Shown: piece after piece, positions 5,750 through 22,042 of the stretch
Layout: every line of letters starts with the position of its first letter
Position numbering within the stretch: the first letter of the stretch is position 1
Notes under the pieces: model-generated
Database searches by the model: none
What the model was told of the DNA's origin: nothing
The model's input: only the letters and a program-made list of their open reading frames with translations
Translations under genes and position numbers: made by a program
DNA from: Ettlia oleoabundans
Taxonomy: Eukaryota > Chlorophyta > Chlorophyceae > Chlamydomonadales
NCBI GenBank assembly: GCA_019693395.1
Contig: JAAMXP010003898.1
Location: 1-22,359, forward strand
Length of the DNA stretch: 22,359 bases
Direction of reading: 5' to 3'

Positions 5750-6747
5750 TCAGTACTGATACCTGCTGCTGCCAGGCGGCGCTCGGCCCTGCTGCTGGGA
5801 GGGAAGGCTGGGTTGCGGGAAATACGCCTGCTGCTGCTGGGGTGGCACAGGCGGTTGCTGCTGCGCCATCGGCATGCCACCGTAGCCGCCACCCATCCCT
5901 GGGAGCCCGCCGCCGTATGCAACTGCTGCCATCTGCATCTGCTGCATCTGCAATGCTGCTGCCTGCTGCATGAAGGCGGCCTGGTGAGCAGCCTGCTGTG
6001 CTGCCAGCATGGCGCCAGCTGAAGAGTAATCCGGAGGTACACTGTAGCTGCTGCCGCCGCCGCCATAGCCGGGCTGCGTGCCAGCCATATGAGGCTGCTG
6101 GCGCATGCCCAGACCCATCCCATAGCCGTGCTGCATGCTCTGCATGCTGTAGCCGGCGCCGCCACCAGGCACCCCCATACCATGGTCGTAAGCCAAAGAT
6201 GAGCCTACACCGCTTCCCGCCACATGCTGGTGGTGCTGCTGGTCCTGGGCGAAGCGGGAGAGGCGCGATCCCGCAGAGCCAGGGCGGCTGCCTGGCCTGT
6301 TATATCCGCCAGTGTTAGCGCCGCCACCGCCGCTGCCACTGCCTCCACCGCCCCCCGAGAACGAGTGGAAGGGAGGGGAGGCGGGCTGCATCCTGCTGCC
6401 GCTGCCACTGTTGCTCCCTCCCTGGCCCCGCCGGTTAGTCGGCGGCGCAGCACCTGCCGCCGCCCAGCTGCCGCCCCCGGAGCCCCAGCCAGACGCGGGA
6501 AGGGCAGCAGCTGTGCCTGGGCTCGTTTTGGTACTGATGCTGGCACTAATGGGGCTGGTGTTGTTGCTGCTATAGGCCCAAGTGTCGCGCCCCGATGCTG
6601 GCGGCACAGGCGTGGCAAGGTGCGTGGTGCTGCCGGCTGGCTCCAGCCGTATTGTGCCGCCACCACCCTCCGCCTGCTCTTGATGCTCGGCAATGGGGGG
6701 CAGCTGGTCGGCTTCCTCATCCGCTTCATCCAAGTGCTGCATCTCCT
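5750..6747 (-). other. Domain: acidic then Gly/Ser/Gln/Met-rich low-complexity tail
   Basis: The last exon (331 residues) begins with an acidic patch (MQHLDEADEEADQLPP). It continues as Gly/Ser-rich sequence with scattered arginines (NRRGQGGSNSG, YNRPGSRPGSAGSRLSRF) and ends in a Gln/Met/Gly/Tyr-rich stretch (LQMQQMQMAAVAYGGG, MAQQQPPVPPQQQQAYF, SSRYQY). The composition resembles RNA-granule proteins. No folded domain is visible. Confidence 0.75.
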
Positions 6748-9700
6748 CTGCAGATATAGATTGTGGGCACCCACGGGCGTCGTCAGCATATGGCAGTAGC
6801 GATTGACCATACCAAAGCTCGGCGTACAAAACAAGCCTATTCAACGGAACACGGCCCCATAATTAGGGCAAGAGCAGGGTTGTGGGCATAATGAGGTGGT
6901 GCTGATGGCTCAAGAGCGATTACAGGTATCGCATGGCATCAACCGTACCGTGAGCAGGCAACAAGCCATTGCAGGCTCAGCCACCCAGAGGCAAGCCAGC
7001 CAGAAGCGAAAAACACATCCCAATCAGCATGTGTGGCGTCTATTATGAGTTAGCAAGTCAGCACAACCCTGTGCATGTCATCCCCACCCCATCCAGCGCT
7101 TCACCACACGCACCCAGGAAGGCTCGGAGGTCCATACTGCTTGGCAGCAGCACATCTCCAATACGCACGCATGGAAAGCCATCCAACACGTCGCCGCTTG
7201 GCAGGCGCTGCAGGCTGCCAGCGCTCAGCAGCGCTCCACTGCCCAAGCGCAGGCCGTCTGCTCCCAAAGTGATCCCGCTGGTGGATCGCTGCAAACTCAA
7301 GCCACCTCCGTTGCCCGTTGCGCCGCCGCCGCTGTTTGGAGCACCGGTGCCGGCAGCAGAAGTCGCGGAGGCAGAGGGAAAAGCCACCGCTGCAGCACTG
7401 GCAAACGGCCCGCCATCGGGGCTGACGTTGGGCGGCAGCGGGGGTAGCTGCCCTGAAGAGGCGGAGGCCGCCCGCGCAATGGCAGCTGCAGCCGCCGCCT
7501 CTTGCGCCTGCTGCCGTTCCACGTTCTTCTGGTGGCGCCGCCCTTTGTAGTGATCCTGCAGTTGGTGTTGGGAGTGGTTGTGAAGGGCAGGCAGGTAGGC
7601 GGGCACGCATTATAAATAGTGGAGAAGGCACAAACCTTGCATGGAGTAGATCAGCGCGTGGCATCTAGGCAGAGCAACATACGAGCAAGCAGGCGCAGGA
7701 GGGAGCGTGGCGGCATGCCTCAAACACAGCAGGCACAAGCGTCCTGGCAGGGACACCACACGGAGGCCAGTCAGTGGGCCCATCTGGCCCCCTCCTCTCA
7801 CCTCCAAGTTCACGGCGCTTGTTGCCATGATGCCGCAAACAGAGCATATGAGCGACTCTGGAGGGGGATCAGCAGCCCCAGATGCCGAGGGTGAGCCCCA
7901 GTCAGCGCTGCCATGACGTGAGTGGCGCCCACGGCCACCACGGCCTACCGGGCTGGCGCTGCGGCTGCCGCTCATTGGGCTGCCACAGCTGGCGGGTGTG
8001 CCGGGCTGCGAGGCTGAGCCGGGGTCAAGGCCCTGGGCCCGCAGCAGCCGCCGCGTGTGCTTCACGCCCTGCAGGGACACCATGGGGCGGTGCAGCGTGA
8101 GGGTGCTGATGCAAGCGGGCACCAGTGCGAGTTGGGGGGGTGCACTAGTAGCATATGCCATGCGCAGTTGTCATGAATTTGCCACACATAACATTGCAAA
8201 GAAGAGGTACTAAATGAGAAAGGCAGCCTGGTTATGCTTCCTCCCGCGTCTGCTGCTCTTCCCACGACATAGACATGCGGTCCCCTTTTGTTCCCGCCTC
8301 TGGACCGTTCATCACTATAAGCCCTCCAGCAGCACTGAATGAACTTGCAGTGCATGTACAGCATTTACCGTTGGGGCAGGGCAGGCTCACCTGCAAATGA
8401 TACTCATAGTGGCGCTTGGAGGGTGTGACCACGCCGCACAAGTCGCAGCGGTAAATGCGCTGGTTGCCTGCCCCATCCAGCAGCATGCCATGCAGTATCG
8501 CAGACTGCTCCTCCGCGGACCAGCTGCCGCCAGCCAAGGGGAGGGGGGAGGCGGAGCCAGGGAGGGGGGAGGCGGAGCCAGTGGGAGGCGTGCTGCTGCC
8601 TGAGGGTGGGCCGCCGCCCGTCAGCCACCCCGCCGCTGCTGCGGCAGCAAATGGCGAGGTGCCATTGGATGCCCAGGAGGCGGCAGCCACCGCCGCGGTC
8701 AGCAGTTGATGCTGCTGATGCTGCAGGCTGCCACCTGCCGTCACCGCTGCGCCGGCTCCACCCAGGAGTGCACCCCGCTGTCGCTGCAGGTGCATCATGC
8801 GTGTGTGCCGCTTGCCCAGCATGTGCATTTGCAGCTGCTCCTCGCTCGTCGCATACAGCCCGCACAGTGAGCAGAACCAGGGGGTCACCAGCGGCTGGGA
8901 CCTGCAGTTGCAAGCAGCCACAGCAGAGAGATGCTCTTATTCAATTACCCACCAGCTGAACACGGCACCACTTTCTCAGCAAAGGTCAGCCAGATTTAGC
9001 TCGCCACGCCGAGCGCCCGCGCCCGCGCTCCCCCCCCCCGCGTCGCAAGCACTCACTGCTTCCATTCATGCAGTTGTAAATGTGCAAGACCCACTCCTGT
9101 CCCACTCACTTGGGGGAGGCTGGGCGGTTGCCGCTGCCGGGTGAATCCATCCCAGCCATCCTGCGCTGGTGCTTGCGGCCGCGGATGTGGGCCTCCAGCA
9201 GCCTGAGGCTGGTGCAGTACACCCCGCATGCATCGCAGCGGTATGGAGTGGGGTCAGGGCTGTACACCTGGCGGTCAGCAAAACTGGGACTCCCATACTC
9301 CCCTGCAAACGCCGGGCAGACAGGTGAGGTGGGGAAGAGCAGACTACGGAAGGCAGTGGGCGGTTGGGTGCAGGGTGGGGAAGGCATGGGGAACCAGGGA
9401 CACCGGGTGGCCAGCAGGGGCGCAGGCACTGTCCACTCACCCCCCTCCTCCTCCTCTTGAAGCTCCCTCCCAGTGCGGCGCAGTGCCAGGGGGGGCGCCC
9501 CCTCACGAGCCTCCAACACCATTGCCCCAGCCCCTCCCCCTGCCACTCCTGTTGTCAAGTTGTGCATGTTAGCTTCATCCAGCAGCAGCCCCTGCAGCAT
9601 GGCGTCCACCTCCTGCCCCTGCTGCAGCACCTGCGCCTGCTTGATGCGGCGCTGGTGACGGAAGCCCTTCAGGTGAGCCTCAAATGCCTGAGGGGGCAGC

Positions 9701-12700
9701 AACAAGTAGAGCAATCGGGTCAGGAAGGCATTGTGTGGGTGGTGGGAACTGTGTTATAAGCTGTGGGTGGATGAATGGAGCAATTATGTTGCATGGCATG
9801 ATTAGACTGGCCAAGAGGTGGTGTGGTGCTTGCAGCAGAGGCCCAGGTTCGAACAGTTAAGGCAAGCAGTGGGGCCGGTCCAAGTTGTTGCAGCAGACGG
9901 CTGTGGGAGCAGGGCAGTACAGGATGGTGGCGCGAATGTGGGCCTGGTAGCCGCCAGGGAGTGCCGTACAACGGTGACCGTCAGCTTTCCTGCGGGGGAC
10001 CAGGCACAGGGCCTCACCTTGTGCCCTGTGGCCGCCACGTTGCAGAGGGGGCAGAAGAAGTTCATGACATGAGGAGGTGCGCCAGCACCACTGCCAAAGG
10101 CAGCACCAGGGCCACCGCCAGGGCCAGCTGCCGCCAACTGTCCATGCTGCCCGCCAACCGCTGCACCCATCACTCCTTCTGTTGTCGCTGGCGACGAACC
10201 GCCTCCCACCGTGCCCGCCTGCAGCGGCGGCGGCGGTGACTGCTGCTGTGCCAGTCCAAGAGCTGTGGCTGTCGGCATCGCGTGCTGGCCCTGCATACTG
10301 CGGGGCAGCAAGTGCTGGGCCAGCAAGAGGCGGGAGGGCCAGTAACGTGCCACTATGCCTAGCCTGTGCAGGGCTGCCAGCGCCAACAGCGCTGCAGCAT
10401 TGGCTGCCTGTTGCTCGGAGGGCAGCGGCGGGCCCACAAACACATCAAGCGGCATGCTGACGCCTGCCGTGTGAAATCGCTCGGGAGGAAAGTAAGCCGA
10501 CGGCAGCGTCACGCTCGACTGGAACAGAAGCTGGGGAGCAGTTTCAGCCGCGGCCTGTGGAGCTTCCACCCTGCACTGGCCACCGTTCTCAACTGCGCCT
10601 GTTTCTTCGCTGGTAACTCGCTCATGGCGGTCGCTTTCGTGGCGAAGCCTAGCGCTGCCACGTCTGTCCAGCTTGGCAGGGCTGGCAGTCATGGTGGCCA
10701 AGGAAGGGGCAGTGCCGCACAGCCCAAGACACAGAGTGTCCAGTACCGTACGAGCGTGTTCCTCCAATACCGCCGCTGTGTTGCGGTGCGCCAACATTGT
10801 CAGCTTCTCCTCAGCAGCTGCATCACCCAGCAGTACCAGCTGCATCGCCGCCTGCATGCAAGAAGGACTCAGACGCCAGATTCAGGGTCAAAGAGCATAC
10901 GCATGCAAGCAGAGGCATGCACGGGAACATGGCCAGCGCTCATGCTACCAACAGACGGGCAGCTTGCTGGTTGACCCAACAATCAGCATGCCAGCCGTTT
11001 ATCCCTGAATCTGCACCAGACTGCTTAGCCAGCCCGCGTGCCTGCCTAAAGCAACTTGCAAGCGTATTGTACTGCCCAACAAGCCGCACAGTGACCTGCT
11101 CTCCCCTCATCCTCTGCACATTGCCACCTACATGCTGCTCCCAACTTTCCCTCAACCCCCCACCTTGAGCGCATGGTCCACCCGCCGCACTTCTCCCAGC
11201 GCCAGCACTTGGCTAGCTGTTGCCAGCACATGGCACTCCAGCCTCTGTCCACCATGCAGCGGTGAGCCGCCGTCCAACCCGGGCCCCTCCCCCGTGCCAT
11301 CGCCCGCCTCGTCCTGGGCCGCCACCGCCGCAGCTGAAAGCTTGTGGCAGGCGGAGAGGGCAGCAGAGTCAAGCTCCTGGCAGGAGGCGTGCAGTACATC
11401 GCCGGAGCTGTACCTGCAGGCGAGGAAGAAAGCTAAAGGGTGAGGACGGCATGCAGAGGAGGTCAGGTGTGCTGCCGTGCGGCACGCAATGATAGCACAG
11501 AAGCGGCGGGCCGAGAGCATGGCGGGCACAAGCGAGCCAGCATGCTGCATGGTTGCTGCCAACTACTGTACCAGATCAACCACCACGCGGTATGCCAGCA
11601 CAACAAGTACACATTTGCCAGTGGAGCGGCAAAAAGCAGCAGCACCCAGGGGGTTGGGCAATGACCTAACGCTAGTTGAGTCGGGGGAAGGGATACGTGA
11701 TCCCCAGGGTGGCTTGGCCCCTGCTATGCTCACCAAACCAAGATTTGGTAGGCAGCGATATGGCGCTCCAGCTCCGCCAGCTCCGATGCTGCCAACAGAT
11801 GCACCGCCATGCTACCGCCACACTGTGCAGGTGCAGCCGCCTTCCCTGCTGCCTCGGCTGCTGCCAATGCCTTTGGGGTGCTTGCCTGCTCTCCGGTGGC
11901 TGCTGGCTCTGCAGAAGAGGGCCCCGCAAAGGGGGATGGTGGTTGTGATGCTGGCTCGGCGGGCGCTGGCGCTGTTGCATGGGGAATTGCCAGCTCTACT
12001 CCCTCTCCATCTCCCCCTCCCGCTGCTGCTGCTTTGTCACCCAAGGAAGCCCCGTCATCCTCCGCCTCTGCCGCTCCCGTGCTGTTGTCCGCACCCTCTG
12101 GTGCCAGCTCCAGCCACCCGGCTGCTGTGGGGGCCGTTTGAAAGCTGTCGCTACCTGCGCTGTCGCTCGGCCCTAGGACTGCCTCTTCCCCTGCACTGGC
12201 AAGGTGCGACTTGCAATTGCGCGGGCTGCTCTTCCCATTCTCATGATGGTGAAGAAGCGCATCTTGGAAGAGGTGCACATCCACACCGGCCAACTGCTGC
12301 TGCTGCTGGGAGGCTGTCGACGTCAGCAGCTGTTGCAGCATCTGCACAGAATCTGCGGTACCAGCAACCACCGCCACCTGGCGTCGCCGCCCGCTGAGCT
12401 GGCAGTCCAACGCCAGCTCGCCCAGTAGCTCCACCAGCGCAGCTGAGCGGGCACAGCCCACAGCCGCCGCTGCAGGGGCAACACCGCTGCCGCGACCCAC
12501 AGCCGGGGTGGACGGCGGCTGCGGGCTGCTGCTGGACGTCAGGCTGCCTGTCTGCTGCTGCCGGTCCCCCGCCTGCTGCCGGTCTCCCGTTTCATCCTTG
12601 CTCGGCATTTGACAGGGCCGCTCCTCTGAAACCGGCTGCTGCAGGGCCCAGTGCAGCAGGGGCGAGGCTGCTGCCACTTGCAGAATACGGCACTTGAGCG

Positions 12701-15700
12701 GAGACGGCGCGCCCCCACCCAAGGGGCCCTGCGCAGTCAGACCCTCCTCCAGAAAAGCCGCCAGCGAATGCAGAGCGGCGGGCAGGCGTGCCAGGCAGGC
12801 AGCCGGGCCCTGCTCCAGCAGTAGCCTGCAATAGAGCAGGAAAAAGAGGCACGGGTAAAACAGCGGGACACCAGATCTGCCAGGAGGGGATGAGCAAGCA
12901 GGTAGCAGGGTGCTTGCAAGCTTTGCACCAGCTGTGATGAGTGCTTTTTACGGCACCCAAGCCATGGTAGGCCAGACAAAAGTCGGCGCGCAGCAGCCCA
13001 CCAGTCCATTCGAGCCGCTACTGACCTGAGGGCGCGCACACAGTCGAGCACGTGCATCATGAGTGCCAGAGCATCAGGCTCCCGCACGTGCTCGCCCTTG
13101 CTGGGCAGCGCGTTGCTGTGCCACAGGCTGTGGACTACCTGCACCAGCAGTTATCATGTCGGCATGGGGGCAGGCACGTGAGCAGTTTTTGAGTCTGGCG
13201 GTCATGCAACTGCAGGCTGCGATGGAACGGTGCACTACAAACCCGAGCGGCTTCTGCTCAGGCAAAAGCGCAGGTGTGGATAAACAACCATGACAGGATC
13301 ACGCATATGTTTGGTGCATGGAAATAGTGCTGTGCCCATGCAGCGGGACCAAAACTAATAGGCATTTCTGCGGCCAATGCTGCACATATGGCCGCAGAGA
13401 GATGGATGGCAGCAAGAAGTAGCCGCACACCACCTCACAAAATACACATACTGGGCCACATACTGGGCCACCCACCTGCAGCTCCACCTGCGCCCAGTCG
13501 TGCTGCATGGGGTCAGGCTGCTCCGCCGCTGCAGCGGCTGCTGAGCTGCTGCTGCCATGCTGCGGGGACGCCCCAAGCATACTGCTGAGTGGGGTTGCGG
13601 GGCTGGCCTCAGCGGCTGGGCTGGCTTTTGCAGACAGAGGGCTGGCTCCTGCTGGCATCCGGGGTGGCGTTGGAGTGTTGCTTGCAGCTGCAATGCCAGC
13701 CAGCAGCCCATGCACCGGGTGGTCAATGCCTGGGGCAGGTGGGGTGCCCGCTGCCGCGCTGCCGGCAGATGGGGTGCCGGGCGTGCCACCTGTGCCTGCT
13801 GCCACGCCGCTGCTGGTAGTTGACGAAAACTGCACCAATCTGCAAACAAGCGGGGGCCATAGTTGGTTTAAGTAATGCCCTTGTGCACCTCGGGAGCGGC
13901 ACTCAACATTCAGCACCTGCCCGGGACCAATAATCCTGCACCTGCATAACCGTACCAGCATCACCAACTAATAGCTGGCGCATCAGCATTCCATGCCCAG
14001 CTGAGCGCAGGCCCCCAATGAATCCAGCATTTCGTCCCCTGCCGAATGCCACAGCCAACCCGCAGCAAACGACCCACGTCAACAATTCATGCCTGGCCCA
14101 CCTGCCAAAGTGGTTGAGCCCAAACTCATGCAGCACATCCCATAGTCCCAGCAGGTGCTGCTGCAGCTGGCTGGCCAGGGCCTCTTCGGGCGGAGGCGGG
14201 GCATACGAGTGCAGCTGGATGCGGTCGTGGTGCAGCTGGGACTCCAGTGCAGCCAGGCCCGGCCCCGCCGGCAGCAGCAGCTGCGCCTGCACGCATGGTT
14301 GGAAGTTGAGGGGACCAGATCAAAACGTGGTTGAAGGTGGGGAAAGGATACAGGGAAGGGCTTGGAGGGAGAGGAGTGTGAATGGGTTGGTGGTGGTGTG
14401 TGGTGTGGTGGTGGGTTGGTGGGTGGGTGGGTGGGTGTAAAGGAGCTGTGCAGGATGTGCACCTGGCAAGCGAGCCAAGTACACCTTTCCCATTCTTGCC
14501 CAAGGGCGTAGCACCGTCTCGTGTCCAAACCCCAGTGCCCACCCAATCCCAGTGCAACCAACCCCCATTTCCGCCCACCATCCCTGCTACACCCACCTGC
14601 AGGCTGTGGCAGAGCTTGCGAAGGTTCTGGCGCAGGCGGTCAAAGGGACGGGGCTTGGTGGGCAGCTGGCTGGCCAGCACTCCCAGCACGCGCGGCCGCT
14701 GCTCCTCATCAGCCACTTTCCAGTACTCACGCACCAACGTGTTGGAGGGGTGGTTGCGCACCGCTGCGGGAAGGCAAGCAAGAAGGATTGCAGGAATCGT
14801 AGAATGGGAGTCAAGTTGCGGCAAACCATAGATGATTGCACAATGCTTCGGCTGAAAGCGGAGCCTGGCATCAAAGGGAGGTGCAGCAGCAAGGCATGCC
14901 AAGCTAATAGCTGGGTGTCTCAGCGAGGCAAAGTGTGGCGCAGCAGCGCACATGGCAGCATGCCCCATGGAGCTCCCGGGCACCACAGCAGACACACAGC
15001 GTGCCGCAGCGCAGCGTGCCTGTGAATGCATCCAGCAGTACCATGAGCGCCGCCTGCTCCAGGCGGTACACCCCAGTCTTGAGCAGGCGCAGCAGCAGGC
15101 CCGCAGTGAACACAAGCACGCGGCTGCAATAGAGGGCGGGCCATCACGGCAGGGGAAGGGGCTCATGTAAGGTTCCGTCAGGCGTGGAGGGATGGGTGGC
15201 GTGCTGGGGCTAGTTGCAGATGTTAAGTTACAAATAAACCAAGCAACTCATGGCAACAACCGATCCTGTTGCGACCTGCGATTTTGAAGTATTCGAGCGG
15301 TTGCAACACTGCTTTGCGCACCGCTGGCCACCCCAAACACCTCAACCTTCTTTCTTTCACTCCGCCATAGTACCCTAACCACGCAGATGCACACACACAT
15401 ATGCCTATGTACCCATCCACATTCCACACCTGGATTCGAACTGCTGTGGGAAGGAGTAGAGGAAATCGCCGCCGCAGAAGACCGCAGTGGGCAGGCCCAG
15501 CTCGGCACGCAGGCGCTGCACACACAGGGCAGCAGATAAGCGCTGAGTGGGCTGGCGAGCATATGAATGGCATGCAAAATAGGGCAAGTCTTCGGGAGCC
15601 TCGCAGCATGTAGCTTAGTGGCATTTGTAGCGCAGCAGGCAGAAGCAGCTGTGCAGGCAGCCACATGAAGTATCAAGCCGCAGTGGTGACAGCAAGCTGA

Positions 15701-16402
15701 GGGCCTGCATTGCCTGGAAGCAGAACTAGCTGTGCCACTAGAGCCAGCGCCCAGCACCCACCTGGGCGTGCGACAGGGCTTGCGCTGGCCGGTCCACCAC
15801 CACCAACACATGCCGGTCGGGGTGGCGCGCTGCCGCACTGCTCAGCACCGCGTCCGTGACTTCACGCAGGCCCAGACCTGCAGCGAACAATGCAATGTGC
15901 ATAAGAAAAGTAAGAATGGGCAGCAGGCAGTGCCAAGAGGCGGGCACTGAAGCCCTTTGACTGATCTGTTGATGCAACCGGCGGCTTCCTGCCGCATAAG
16001 TGCAGCGGCAGCTAGATCGCAGTGCACTATGCAACTCAGGTCACGAGTCACAGCACTTGCAAGGTGTGCACCTAGTGGAAGGAAGGTGACACAGTTTCCG
16101 GGGCAGCTGTTGATGGCCTCAACTAGTTCAGCCTGGTGTGGCGCTAAGCCAGCACCACCGCTGCCCCCGCTGCTGCCGTGCGGAGAGCCTGAGCTGCTTG
16201 GCCGCAGCGCCACTGCCACCTTCGCGTTCACAGCCGCTAGGCGGCTCTCCCAGTCGGCATTTGCAGCTAAAACAGCGCCTGACGAGTTGGGCGAGGCGCC
16301 CGCTGCGTCGGCGGTGCAGGCAGATAGCGCCACCGCCGCTTCCCGCAGGTGTTGCAGCTGAGCCGCGGCGCTTGCAGCCGTAGCTGCGGGCGAATCCTGC
16401 AT
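5750..16402 (-). CDS. Degenerate Dicer-type helicase fused to DUF283-like domain and five C2H2 zinc fingers
   Basis: Seventeen exons: 16402-16072, 15877-15762, 15515-15430, 15123-15020, 14763-14597, 14286-14102, 13839-13476, 13138-13026, 12825-11734, 11413-11164, 10851-10018, 9687-9441, 9302-9110, 8901-8391, 8068-7802, 7555-7114 and 6747-5750. Every junction keeps phase; the total is 6,300 nt (2,099 aa). An in-frame TAG lies upstream of the ATG. Domain order: degenerate SF2 helicase lobe 1 (~70-250), Hel2i-like region (~269-450), degenerate lobe 2 (~610-850), Dicer-dimerisation-like domain (~1043-1104), zinc fingers at 1203-1225, 1319-1341, 1371-1393, 1513-1535 and 1606-1628, then a Gly/Gln/Met-rich tail. 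I saw no PAZ or RNase III region. Inference: an RNA-binding protein that cannot hydrolyse ATP or cleave RNA and works in or against a small-RNA pathway. I know no described protein with this architecture. All splice sites except one (GC donor after 15020) are GT-AG. Alternative: two adjacent genes, which the continuous phase argues against. Confidence 0.8.
7532..10053 (-). other. Domain: array of five matrin/U1-type C2H2 zinc fingers
   Basis: Zinc ligands are C1203/C1206/H1219/H1225, C1319/C1322/H1335/H1341, C1371/C1374/H1387/H1393, C1513/C1516/H1529/H1535 and C1606/C1609/H1622/H1628. Every finger is Cx2Cx12Hx5H with a basic GxxHxxR-type ending (GFRHQRR, GRKHQRR, GKRHTRM, GVKHTRR, GRRHQKN). 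This spacing and ending are typical of the U1/matrin/JAZ class, which binds RNA or double-stranded RNA, not of the DNA-reading TFIIIA class (His spacing of 3-4). Introns interrupt fingers 1, 4 and 5 at three different places, each in phase 0. Long Ala/Gly/Ser-rich linkers separate the fingers. Confidence 0.88.
8541..8581 (+). repeat. Two tandem copies of a 21-bp unit in a coding exon
   Basis: The unit starting GAGGGGGGAGGCGGAGCCAG occurs twice in a row, at 8541-8561 and again from 8562. In the minus-strand protein it encodes a doubled SASPLPG-type heptapeptide between zinc fingers 3 and 4. Because it is a multiple of three it can change copy number without breaking the frame. Confidence 0.85.
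10348..10533 (-). other. Domain: Dicer-dimerisation (DUF283)-like
   Basis: Residues ~1043-1104 in exon 11. SSVTLPSAYFPPE is followed by MPLDVFVGPPLPSEQQAANA and ALLALAALHRLGIV. The Dicer DUF283 domain has a beta strand with a TLPS element, then GPP, then a helix of type SKKxAKxxAAlkAcexLHxlG. Strand, GPP turn and LHrLG helix occur here in the same order and spacing. In plant DCL proteins this dsRBD-like fold binds partner dsRBD proteins. Its position right after the helicase-like region strengthens the assignment of both. Confidence 0.65.
11734..14286 (-). other. Domain: Hel2i-like insert and degenerate helicase lobe 2
   Basis: Exons 6-9, residues 269-852. GLAALESQLHHDRIQ, then PPPPEEA and LLGLWDVLHEFG, resemble the plant Dicer insert (NLESKLD, then PMPSE, then MWSLHE). 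An Ala/Pro/Ser-rich stretch fills exon 7 (~330-450). ALVELLGELALDCQ and RRRQVAVVAGTADSVQMLQQ (636-655) resemble the start of the C-terminal helicase lobe (a conserved Leu-rich helix, then IVFVeRr-TA). Residues ~680-820 are an acidic, Ala/Gly/Pro-rich linker where motif V should lie. QCGGSMAVHLL (823-833) sits where QSRGRAR (motif VI) is expected, and an ELAELERHI helix follows. The remote similarity is mine by eye and has not been scored. Confidence 0.55.
14370..14437 (+). repeat. GGT/GGGT simple repeat in an intron
   Basis: This plus-strand stretch inside intron 5 of the helicase/zinc-finger gene is nearly pure G and T, ending in GGTGGGTGGGTGGGTGGGTG. The gene is read from the other strand, so its transcript carries the CCCACC complement. 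The four or more G-runs could form a G-quadruplex on the template strand. Confidence 0.8.
14597..16402 (-). other. Domain: helicase lobe 1, ATPase motifs lost
   Basis: Exons 1-5, residues ~70-268. The line-up with Dicer/RIG-I-type helicases is by recall. APHQAELVEAI resembles the YQxE element before motif I. FLPLGLGLREV (107-117) stands where LPTGSGKT is expected, so the Walker lysine and threonine are Leu114 and Arg115. HVLVVVDRPAQAL is motif Ia-like. LPTAVFCGGDF matches the LxVgxYcGG element, and VLVFTAGLLLRLL replaces VLVMTPqiLL. MVLLDAFTAVRNHPSN replaces VLDECHHAVKNHPYN, so DExH reads L-D-A-F. RPRVLGVLASQL replaces RPRVLGLTASP (motif III). The scaffold residues are kept while catalytic ones are gone, which points to a fold preserved for another use. 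Confidence 0.72.
14764..15019 (-). other. GC-AG intron inside the degenerate DExH motif
   Basis: The exon ends TTCACAG and the intron starts GCACGC; the acceptor is TCCCGCAG. Joining 15020 to 14763 makes an alanine codon and gives DAFT-A-VRNHPSN, which lines up residue for residue with Dicer DECHHAVKNHPYN. The good family match across the junction is the main reason to accept a GC donor here. Confidence 0.75.
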
Positions 16403-19950: not shown

Positions 19951-20288
19951 TGGCAAACGCTGCTGCCCGTGCAACGCGATATGGCGCGAGGTGAACCTCA
20001 ACAAATGGTTTGTCACCGCAAATGAGCAGCCCAAGGCTTATGTGAAGCTAGACCGAAATGCAAATCACGCTTTGAGAGGCTTATAGTGCGTTTCCGATGA
20101 GTATAGACACAAATTGCAGTAATCGGTAGTTTTTCGGGCCCTCAAAAGGGCAATCCATCTACAGGCAGGAAGCAGGTCCAAAGGCAGGACACCCGTTGTA
20201 CTTCTCCCTCGTCTCTGGCCCCGTGCGTATAAGCAATGGCCGGGTCGAGTTGTTTCACGATTTCTTAATATTGCAAAACTTGCTAGCC
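19951..20288. promoter_or_regulatory. Shared divergent promoter region
   Basis: These 338 bases separate the start codons of the leftward coiled-coil gene and the rightward RpoT gene, so both promoters and 5' leaders must fit here. I saw no clear TATA box in either direction. The central part (about 20050-20160) is AT-richer than the flanking exons, as expected for a promoter. Confidence 0.55.
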
Positions 20289-22042
20289 ATGGAACCTGCC
20301 TCCAGGCAGGCCGGCATGCGATGGCTCGTCAGAGCGCTGCAGAGCCTTGAAGGCCCCTCCCCCGCCGCACGTTCCCCGCCCGGATACCTCAGATCGTTCA
20401 CGGCTGAGGCCGCGCCGCAGGCGGTGGAGGAGGTCTCTTCTGCCGCCGCTGCTGCCAGCGCTGCCACCGCTGCCCGCTACGGCGCAGCCACCCAACAGCT
20501 GCGGCCGTATATCCCGGGACATAAGCAGGGTTTACGGCACGAGCAGCATAACCGCACGCGGCTGTCCTCCTTTCTGGGCCTGACGGAGGTGTTAGAGCAG
20601 CAGCAGGCACAGCTGGCGGGCGGTGGCGCCGCCGCGATGGCAGCTGGCGGCGGCATGTCCACCGCGCTGCGCACAATGACCTGGCACCACCGCCACATGG
20701 ACGACACGCCAGCCGGGCGCGAGCTGCGCCGCGACTGGCAGCGGCAGATCATCTTAGAAACCAAAGCGCTAGAAGCCACGCGTGCACGGTACCAAAAGGA
20801 GGCGCTGTCAGCGATCTCGCGGGGCCAGGCAGCGGCGCTGCCGGAAGCGCGCCAAATGCTGCTGCGCTGGTTTGGGCCCATGACGGCGGCCATCCGGCGC
20901 GAGCAGCAGCGGGTGAGCAACTGCCTGGGTGGCATGAACGTGCTGCTGCGCTGGGTGTGAGTTGTGCAGTGCTGCCAGCCGCCTGCTGAAGTTCTTTTGC
21001 TCTGCCAGCTGTTTGTGCACGCTTACCATCTTGAGAGCTCTGCACGGAGCTGGAGGGCAGGCAAATCACCACGCTCACGCCTTTTAGTTTGGTGCTTGCT
21101 GTCTTATGCACCTGCTTGGCTGGGGGGGGGGCTTCTGTGTGCCTGTTACTGCCTCCCTAACCCCATTCTGCCCCACGCCTCCTCCTCCCTGGGCCCCACC
21201 GCCACCCCACCGCCAGGTCATGACTGGTGCCAGAGGCATAGACCGCTCAGTGTACGGCCCCTACCTGCTCCTGCTGGAGCCCGAGCAGCTGGCGGTGCTG
21301 ACCATGCACTCGGCCATCAATTGCATAGTGGCGCCTGAGGAGTCCAGCGGCGGCGCTTTCTCCTCACCCGGACAGGCACGCGTCACGCGCTTGGCACTCA
21401 ACATTGGCAAGGTGGGTGGGTAGAACGTGGTGTAGGCGTGTGATGACAATGGGTGTGGCTGGCGTTGGTGGGAAGGGGGATGGAAGCTTTTGGGGGAGGG
21501 TGTCCCAGACCTGTGTGCCTAACTGATTTCACCATCCTTCCTAACTCCTGCGTGTGGTGCAGGCTGTTGAGGGTCAGGTGAACCTAGAGAAGCTCCAGGC
21601 TGAGGCTCACCGCCGCAACATGCTGAGGCGAGAGATCAAGGAGCTTTACATGCAGGTGCGGGCGGTGGGTGGGTGGGGGGTGGGGTGGGGTGGACGGCGA
21701 TGGGGCGCGTGCACGCGCGCCGTGGTCACGAATTTACGGTTGAAGTGGGTGTCCCCGCACCCTTTCTTCCCAGGGTCACCCTGCCTCTGCCACTCTAGCC
21801 CCTTGCCGCCGGCCCCTACATCTCTCCCTTTCCCAACACCAAATGGTCATCGATTAACCACTTCCAGCCACAATCCATGTGACATGCAGGGCCACGCGCT
21901 GCGGCGGAAGCTGCAGGCGCTGCGAGAGGAGGACCCGGGCGCTCGGCTGCCTGATGCTGAGTGGCACCAGTGGCTGTCCCTGGGTGCAAGCCTGAGGGAG
22001 TTGGGGGAGGTGCTGCCTCTGGACGCACAGGACTGGTTCACG
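20289..22042 (+). CDS. RPOT: Phage-type (RpoT) organellar RNA polymerase, N-terminal part
   Basis: Exons 20289-20912, 21217-21411, 21563-21655 and 21890-22042, all joined in phase 0 (355 residues in the window). The start is the first ATG in frame. MEPASRQAGMRWLVRALQ and the next ~30 residues are Arg/Ala/Ser-rich and poor in acids, which suggests a mitochondrial or plastid transit peptide. RpoT features: RYGAATQQLRPYIPG, RLSSFLGLTEVLEQQQ, a long charged helix (RELRRDWQRQIILETKALEA), MLLRWFGPMTAAIRREQQR, VYGPYLLLLEPEQLAVLTMH and ALNIGKAVEGQVNLEKLQ. These match the N-terminal domain of plant and mitochondrial single-subunit polymerases, which transcribe organelle genomes. The T7-like polymerase core must lie to the right. 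The next exon may begin near 22313 (TLLGFGPDHSVVSHA), but phase from 22042 does not fit simply, so it is left out. Target organelle cannot be decided here. Confidence 0.88.
21656..21720 (+). other. G-run-rich 5' end of an RpoT intron
   Basis: Directly after the donor at 21656 the transcript reads GTGCGGGCGGTGGGTGGGTG and continues with more runs of three to six G. This is enough for an RNA G-quadruplex next to the splice site. Similar G-triplets follow donors of other introns in the window. Confidence 0.7.

Follow-up and report, generated by a model that had tools for sequence, protein, structure and literature searches.

A predicted Dicer-type helicase lacking ATPase motifs and followed by five zinc fingers in the green alga Ettlia oleoabundans

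Introduction

Dicers, plant DCL1 and DCL4 among them, carry a RecA1-Hel2i-RecA2 helicase followed by a DUF283 domain, and their partners are mainly known as proteins with double-stranded RNA-binding domains (dsRBDs). According to the available part of PMC7827160, the DUF283 domains of plant DCL1 and DCL4 bind HYL1 and DRB4, and that of DCL4 shows binding of double-stranded RNA (dsRNA) only in traces. Here we analyse a stretch of 22,359 nucleotides from Ettlia oleoabundans (contig JAAMXP010003898.1, assembly GCA_019693395.1), the whole of which is called the window, and which encodes on its minus strand a predicted protein of 2,099 residues that joins a Dicer-type helicase without ATPase motifs, a DUF283-like domain and five zinc fingers. 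To our knowledge, fingers of the JAZ, dsRBP-ZFa or TUT4 type have no known fusion to a Dicer helicase.

Regarding domain order, the window protein resembles Dicer, DCL1 and DCL4, which also provide its top sequence matches and the top Foldseek match of the family, but it shows neither ATPase motifs nor a PAZ or RNase III match, zinc fingers being found instead. Unlike it, Drosophila Dicer-1 keeps PAZ and RNase III. Both nonetheless retain an ATPase-dead Dicer helicase, with a degenerate HEL1 in Dicer-1 (available part of PMC7827160). Several domains often go undetected in non-canonical fungal Dicers as well, while the term "zinc finger" is absent from the main text of the paper describing them (PMC12663654, as far as available). 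RIG-I-like receptors, LGP2 included, and DRH-1 differ in that the window protein is nearer to Dicer and has no match to the RIG-I C-terminal domain or CARD. Its fingers follow the C-X2-C-Xn-H-X5-H pattern of JAZ, dsRBP-ZFa and TUT4, match the zf-met and JAZ profiles, and retrieve the ZFa structure 1zu1. HYL1, DRB4, R2D2 and Loquacious would share with it the role proposed below, that of a non-catalytic dsRNA-binding partner, but its architecture is unrelated to theirs and contains no match to dsrm, the Pfam family of dsRBDs.

A Dicer-type helicase without ATPase motifs

The N-terminal half of the protein is a Dicer-type RecA1-Hel2i-RecA2 helicase from which the ATPase motifs are missing. When residues 85-330 were used as phmmer query, ancestral Dicer (5e-11) and plant DCL1 (4.5e-10) were matched far better than the best RIG-I row (3.9e-4), and a profile of the family of relatives described below behaved similarly against the PDB, with values of 6.1e-12 for ancestral Dicer, 5.2e-9 for DCL1, 2.3e-8 for DCL4 and 0.016 for the best RIG-I row. 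The AlphaFold2 model of one relative, P0014, displays helicase blocks mostly at a predicted local distance difference test (pLDDT) score of 80-96, and its top three rows in Foldseek all correspond to the ancestral Dicer helicase on dsRNA, the best at 1.5e-20. Foldseek and VIA both find the RIG-I-type RecA1-Hel2i-RecA2 fold in this model, the window protein itself being assigned from its sequence. A RIG-I-like receptor was considered and rejected on account of the closer Dicer sequence and the missing C-terminal domain; VIA-align does rank RIG-I first.

Loss of the ATP-binding and hydrolysis motifs extends to the whole family, comprising 34 sequences with the window protein included. None of them shows a Walker A GK[T/S] at motif I, where the site is readable in 20, a bare GK[T/S] string occurring elsewhere in 13. 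At the DECH site, all 26 readable sequences have DAF (24) or DAI (P0026 and P0027), the other eight being unread. In the window protein FLPLGLGLRE replaces GxGKT, and LLDAF stands for DECH. The motif VI region reads H[AT][AS][GA]FD in 27 of the 34 and HASCQELDS in the window protein, the usual QxxGRxR consensus not being seen near its expected position. Motif Ib of RecA1, on the other hand, resembles that of DCL1 (FTAGLLLRLL versus MTAQILLNIL). Given the known roles of these motifs, this pattern indicates that the ATP motifs went while the RNA-contact motif stayed. The dead Dicer-type helicase proposed in an earlier note on this DNA is thereby borne out by sequence profiles, by family-wide motif loss and by the structure predicted for P0014, whose RecA folds are of high confidence.

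Gene structure

The gene runs on the minus strand from 16402 to 5750. Its 17 exons, rebuilt with hand-picked donor and acceptor sites and thus predicted from genomic sequence, splice in frame into 6,300 nucleotides with one terminal stop, reproducing the reading of the earlier note. Of the 16 introns, fifteen have GT-AG borders, the exception being intron 4 with GC-AG. Exon joins agree with the relatives: splicing of intron 4 yields DAFTAVRNHP, where relatives have DAFSAVRNHP or DAFTAIRNHP, and the join ATGHKAFEAH within finger 1, split over exons 11 and 12, is likewise matched. The parts are as follows.

16072..16402, minus strand: exon 1, N-terminus and beginning of RecA1, including FLPLG as the first half of the dead motif I
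15762..15877, minus strand: exon 2, remainder of dead motif I, motif Ia-like RPAQAL
15430..15515, minus strand: exon 3, RecA1
15020..15123, minus strand: exon 4, RecA1 with FTAGLLLRLL, which resembles motif Ib, and with the dead motif II; GC donor next
15024..15032, minus strand: DAF replacing the catalytic DECH, in exon 4
14597..14763, minus strand: exon 5, AVRNHP block and region of motif III
14102..14286, minus strand: exon 6, from the last part of RecA1 into the first Hel2i-like helices (borders taken from the alignment with P0014)
13476..13839, minus strand: exon 7, low-complexity linker and start of the conserved Hel2i block
13026..13138, minus strand: exon 8, conserved Hel2i block
11734..12825, minus strand: exon 9, remainder of the Hel2i block, then linkers and RecA2-like sequence
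11164..11413, minus strand: exon 10, RecA2-like, motif VI region without the familiar arginine-finger motif
10018..10851, minus strand: exon 11, RecA2/pincer-like end, Dicer_dimer-like domain, start of finger 1
10300..10530, minus strand: Dicer_dimer (DUF283)-like domain, residues 1044-1120, from Pfam scan and fold prediction
9441..9687, minus strand: exon 12, remainder of finger 1 (residues 1201-1232 across exons 11-12)
9110..9302, minus strand: exon 13, finger 2 at 9148-9243
8391..8901, minus strand: exon 14, finger 3 at 8784-8879, start of finger 4 at 8391-8453
7802..8068, minus strand: exon 15, end of finger 4 at 8036-8068, start of finger 5 at 7802-7852
7114..7555, minus strand: exon 16, end of finger 5 at 7511-7555, followed by the first part of the conserved C-terminal block
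7114..7234, minus strand: exon 16 portion of the conserved C-terminal block (residues 1728-1775), which includes FPCVRIGDVLLPSSMDLRAFLEE and continues at 6725-6747
5750..6747, minus strand: exon 17, remainder of the conserved block, then the Q/G-rich low-complexity tail and the stop codon at 5750

The GC donor of intron 4 (window 15020 / 14763) lies directly after the dead DECH site. Three AATAAA signals occur in the window, a count that 21 of 100 shuffles reached. No second genomic copy was found in a search with residues 85-522, whose nine matches are all to the gene's own exons (C1008).

The DUF283-like domain and the missing Dicer domains

Residues 1-1669 were scanned against Pfam, as were the pieces encoded by exons 16 and 17. 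The DUF283-like domain claimed before is upheld in part, since Dicer_dimer (DUF283) is matched above its cut-off of 23.7 bits by an isolated piece of 89 residues (24.8 bits) and falls below it in the long query (18.6 bits). Relatives P0002 and P0003 also score under the cut-off (23.1 and 19.1 bits, respectively), and Pfam gives no Dicer_dimer match in P0005, P0006, P0014 or P0022. For the window piece, strands followed by a long helix are predicted with a mean pLDDT of 80; Foldseek returned no significant match for this isolated fold (best value 0.35), ranks 1-5 all being Dicers. We therefore place, with moderate confidence, a divergent Dicer_dimer domain at the expected position, and regard it as the least secure part of the domain reading.

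The same scans gave no match to RNase III (PF00636), PAZ or dsrm (PF00035), and neither the RIG-I C-terminal regulatory domain nor CARD was among the matches; a diverged PAZ or platform was not separately tested. The lack of PAZ and RNase III that had been noticed earlier agrees with these results.

Zinc fingers and the C-terminal block

Five Cx2Cx12Hx5H fingers follow the DUF283-like domain, as had been described, and are matched by zf-met in five stretches (1.9e-28, 98.3 bits against a cut-off of 21.2) and by JAZ in four (2.2e-18, 66.4 bits against 22.6). The dsRNA-binding ZFa structure 1zu1 is retrieved by fingers 4 and 5 together at 5.3e-5, by the finger 5 stretch alone at 0.14, and by the family profile at 8.4e-5. 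JAZ fingers of the C-X2-C-Xn-H-X5-H kind bind dsRNA independently of sequence, according to the available part of PMC6488673. In nine of ten comparisons the window fingers best match the same-numbered finger of P0002 or P0003 (15-26 of 33 residues), the exception being finger 2 against P0003, with 15 identities for finger 2 and 16 for finger 4. The lone fingers of P0005 and P0014 are nearest to finger 5 (19/33 and 21/33, respectively).

Beyond the fingers, a block FPCVRxGDVxLPSSMDL (7114-7234 and 6725-6747) is found in 12 of the 34 sequences. Its surrounding segment shows 60-75% identity to P0002, P0003, P0005 and P0008, ranks among the best-conserved peptides between branches, and has no Pfam match above cut-off in the pieces from exons 16 and 17. 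It may possibly be a docking motif.

A family of relatives

At least 33 distinct related proteins (P0001-P0033) were found, four by protein search, nine by a four-row profile and 28 by an eight-row profile, each search having scored the ~7,980 candidates with most shared words. They include P0003 of Parachlorella kessleri (2,455 residues) and P0014 (1,103 residues), the EukProt entry "Picsp_1 ... endoribonuclease dicer", which we take to be from Picochlorum by its code Picsp. The earlier note had proposed a search for orthologues in Chlorophyceae; these nearest named relatives, however, both belong to the Trebouxiophyceae.

Five fingers are confined to the window protein, P0002 and P0003; one finger is the commoner state, with 15 of the 34 sequences, and 16 show none, many of these being short and perhaps incomplete. 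The five-finger architecture therefore holds for the window's branch rather than for the family. Each of the 15 one-finger proteins also contains the helicase-region block RPFD, accompanied in 11 by motif I, and P0002 and P0003 likewise contain helicase-region sequence. Since the helicase-like part and the fingers share one protein among relatives, they do not represent two separate genes. Such a wrong joining of neighbouring helicase-like and zinc-finger genes might be suspected from a model built on genomic sequence alone, with a low-complexity stretch between the Dicer_dimer-like domain and finger 1, but finger 1 itself spans exons 11 and 12, and we consider this explanation highly improbable. 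The single protein proposed before, unbroken between exons 9 and 12, stands.

In the unrooted tree, the five-finger sequences group with P0001 (100), adjoined by one-finger P0008 on a long branch (97). This topology fits the acquisition of four fingers along the window's branch, and the earlier proposal that catalysis was lost and fingers were gained is plausible, within the limits of a tree without a root.

Identity to the Parachlorella protein amounts to 56% in RecA1, 50% in Hel2i, 51% in Dicer_dimer, 41, 40 and 53% in the RecA2 parts and 46-78% in the fingers, compared with 9-40% in the linkers and tail. That domains are more conserved than linkers and tail in percent identity points to selection on the protein.

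RNA interference genes in the same genome and in other algae

A Dicer helicase with intact motifs I-III (DTGAGKT, DECHH, GMTAAPAN) is located on C673 and matches DCL1 at 5.4e-32, motif VI not being seen in it, while C458 carries the RNase III signatures RLETLGDAF and RLEFLGDAV, each match alone under the Pfam cut-off, together with a Dicer_dimer domain above cut-off. The true Dicer seems split, its helicase lying close to the end of C673 (18000-27900) and its Dicer_dimer and RNase III domains close to the beginning of C458 (1-10000), and the two parts probably form one gene. Argonaute is found on C694 and RNA-dependent RNA polymerase on C642. The genome gives two dsrm matches, neither above cut-off. 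A separate weak RNase III-like match lies on C1114 at 23000-27000 (22.9 bits, cut-off 27).

In other green algae, as far as the available parts of these papers go, Chlorella and Coccomyxa are credited with one Dicer and one Argonaute gene each and Helicosporidium with none (PMC4014436), Prototheca and Auxenochlorella have both genes (PMC7941945), and Medakamo has neither (PMC9871001). Coccomyxa is elsewhere described as having Argonautes but no Dicer or dsRBD partners (PMC3446292), which conflicts with PMC4014436 and PMC7941945 as regards its Dicer.

Possible functions

As a true Dicer is present in the genome and a canonical dsRBD partner was not found, we favour, tentatively and at somewhat less than even chances, the reading that selection has maintained this Dicer relative, devoid of ATPase and nuclease, to bind dsRNA as a partner or regulator of Dicer. 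To the computed gene structure, fold, motif loss, conservation and coexistence with RNA interference genes, this reading adds dsRNA binding and partnership with Dicer, which we infer. In such a mechanism, (i) the RecA1-Hel2i-RecA2 module would keep the dsRNA-clamping fold of Dicer and RIG-I after losing its motifs for ATP binding and hydrolysis, (ii) the DUF283-like domain would be retained as a docking surface for dsRNA or protein, and (iii) the U1C/JAZ-type finger, one in most finger-bearing relatives and five in the window's branch, would add a sequence-independent grip on dsRNA. The protein would then bind dsRNA or hairpin RNA and work with or regulate the true Dicer without catalysis of its own, in the position taken by dsRBD partner proteins in plants and animals. 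A wider and more speculative proposal, which we hold to be possible though rather doubtful, is that the Parachlorella/Picochlorum lineage has an undescribed "pseudo-Dicer" family, a dsRNA clamp without ATPase or nuclease serving as dedicated partner of the true Dicer in place of dsRBD cofactors, its single finger having become an array of five in the window's branch. Among the papers listed by searches of open-licence literature for such a family or for RNA interference genes of these algae, none was recognised, by title and start of abstract, as a description of it.

A retired Dicer N-terminus might alternatively serve as RNA-binding scaffold outside RNA interference, in messenger ribonucleoprotein granules, splicing, or ribosome or organelle RNA, with the tail driving assembly. 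The Q/G-rich composition of that tail, the strong conservation of the C-terminal peptide without Pfam match, and weak matches of the zf-met-type fingers to PRP9, PRP11, ZMAT2 and ZNF622 agree with such a role, but these matches reach 0.045 or worse, compared with 5.3e-5 for dsRNA-binding ZFa, and the kept Dicer-type clamp fold suggests dsRNA as ligand. We regard the scaffold as plausible but less likely than the partner reading. We give still less credit to a function as sensor, decoy or protector, in which the protein would bind dsRNA of viruses or transposons and either keep it from Dicer or signal: Pfam found no signalling domain in the scanned residues, the protein has lost the ATPase by which RIG-I-like sensors discriminate, and the sequence is much nearer to Dicer than to RIG-I. 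All three roles suggested in the earlier note, those of dsRNA sensor, Dicer cofactor and competitor of dicing, are still candidates.

If the partner or regulator reading is right, it would show that a Dicer cofactor can also arise from a dead N-terminal half of Dicer, maintained by selection alongside the true enzyme, and would allow the binding role of the Dicer helicase to be told apart from its role in ATP hydrolysis. The Picochlorum "endoribonuclease dicer" (P0014), which has no RNase III match, further advises caution with name-based counts of RNA interference genes in algae.

Elsewhere in the window, an open frame at 20130-20960 on the plus strand resembles RPOL_N, the RNA polymerase N-terminal domain (2.1e-6, 27.8 bits, cut-off 30.1), and might belong to an organellar phage-type polymerase.
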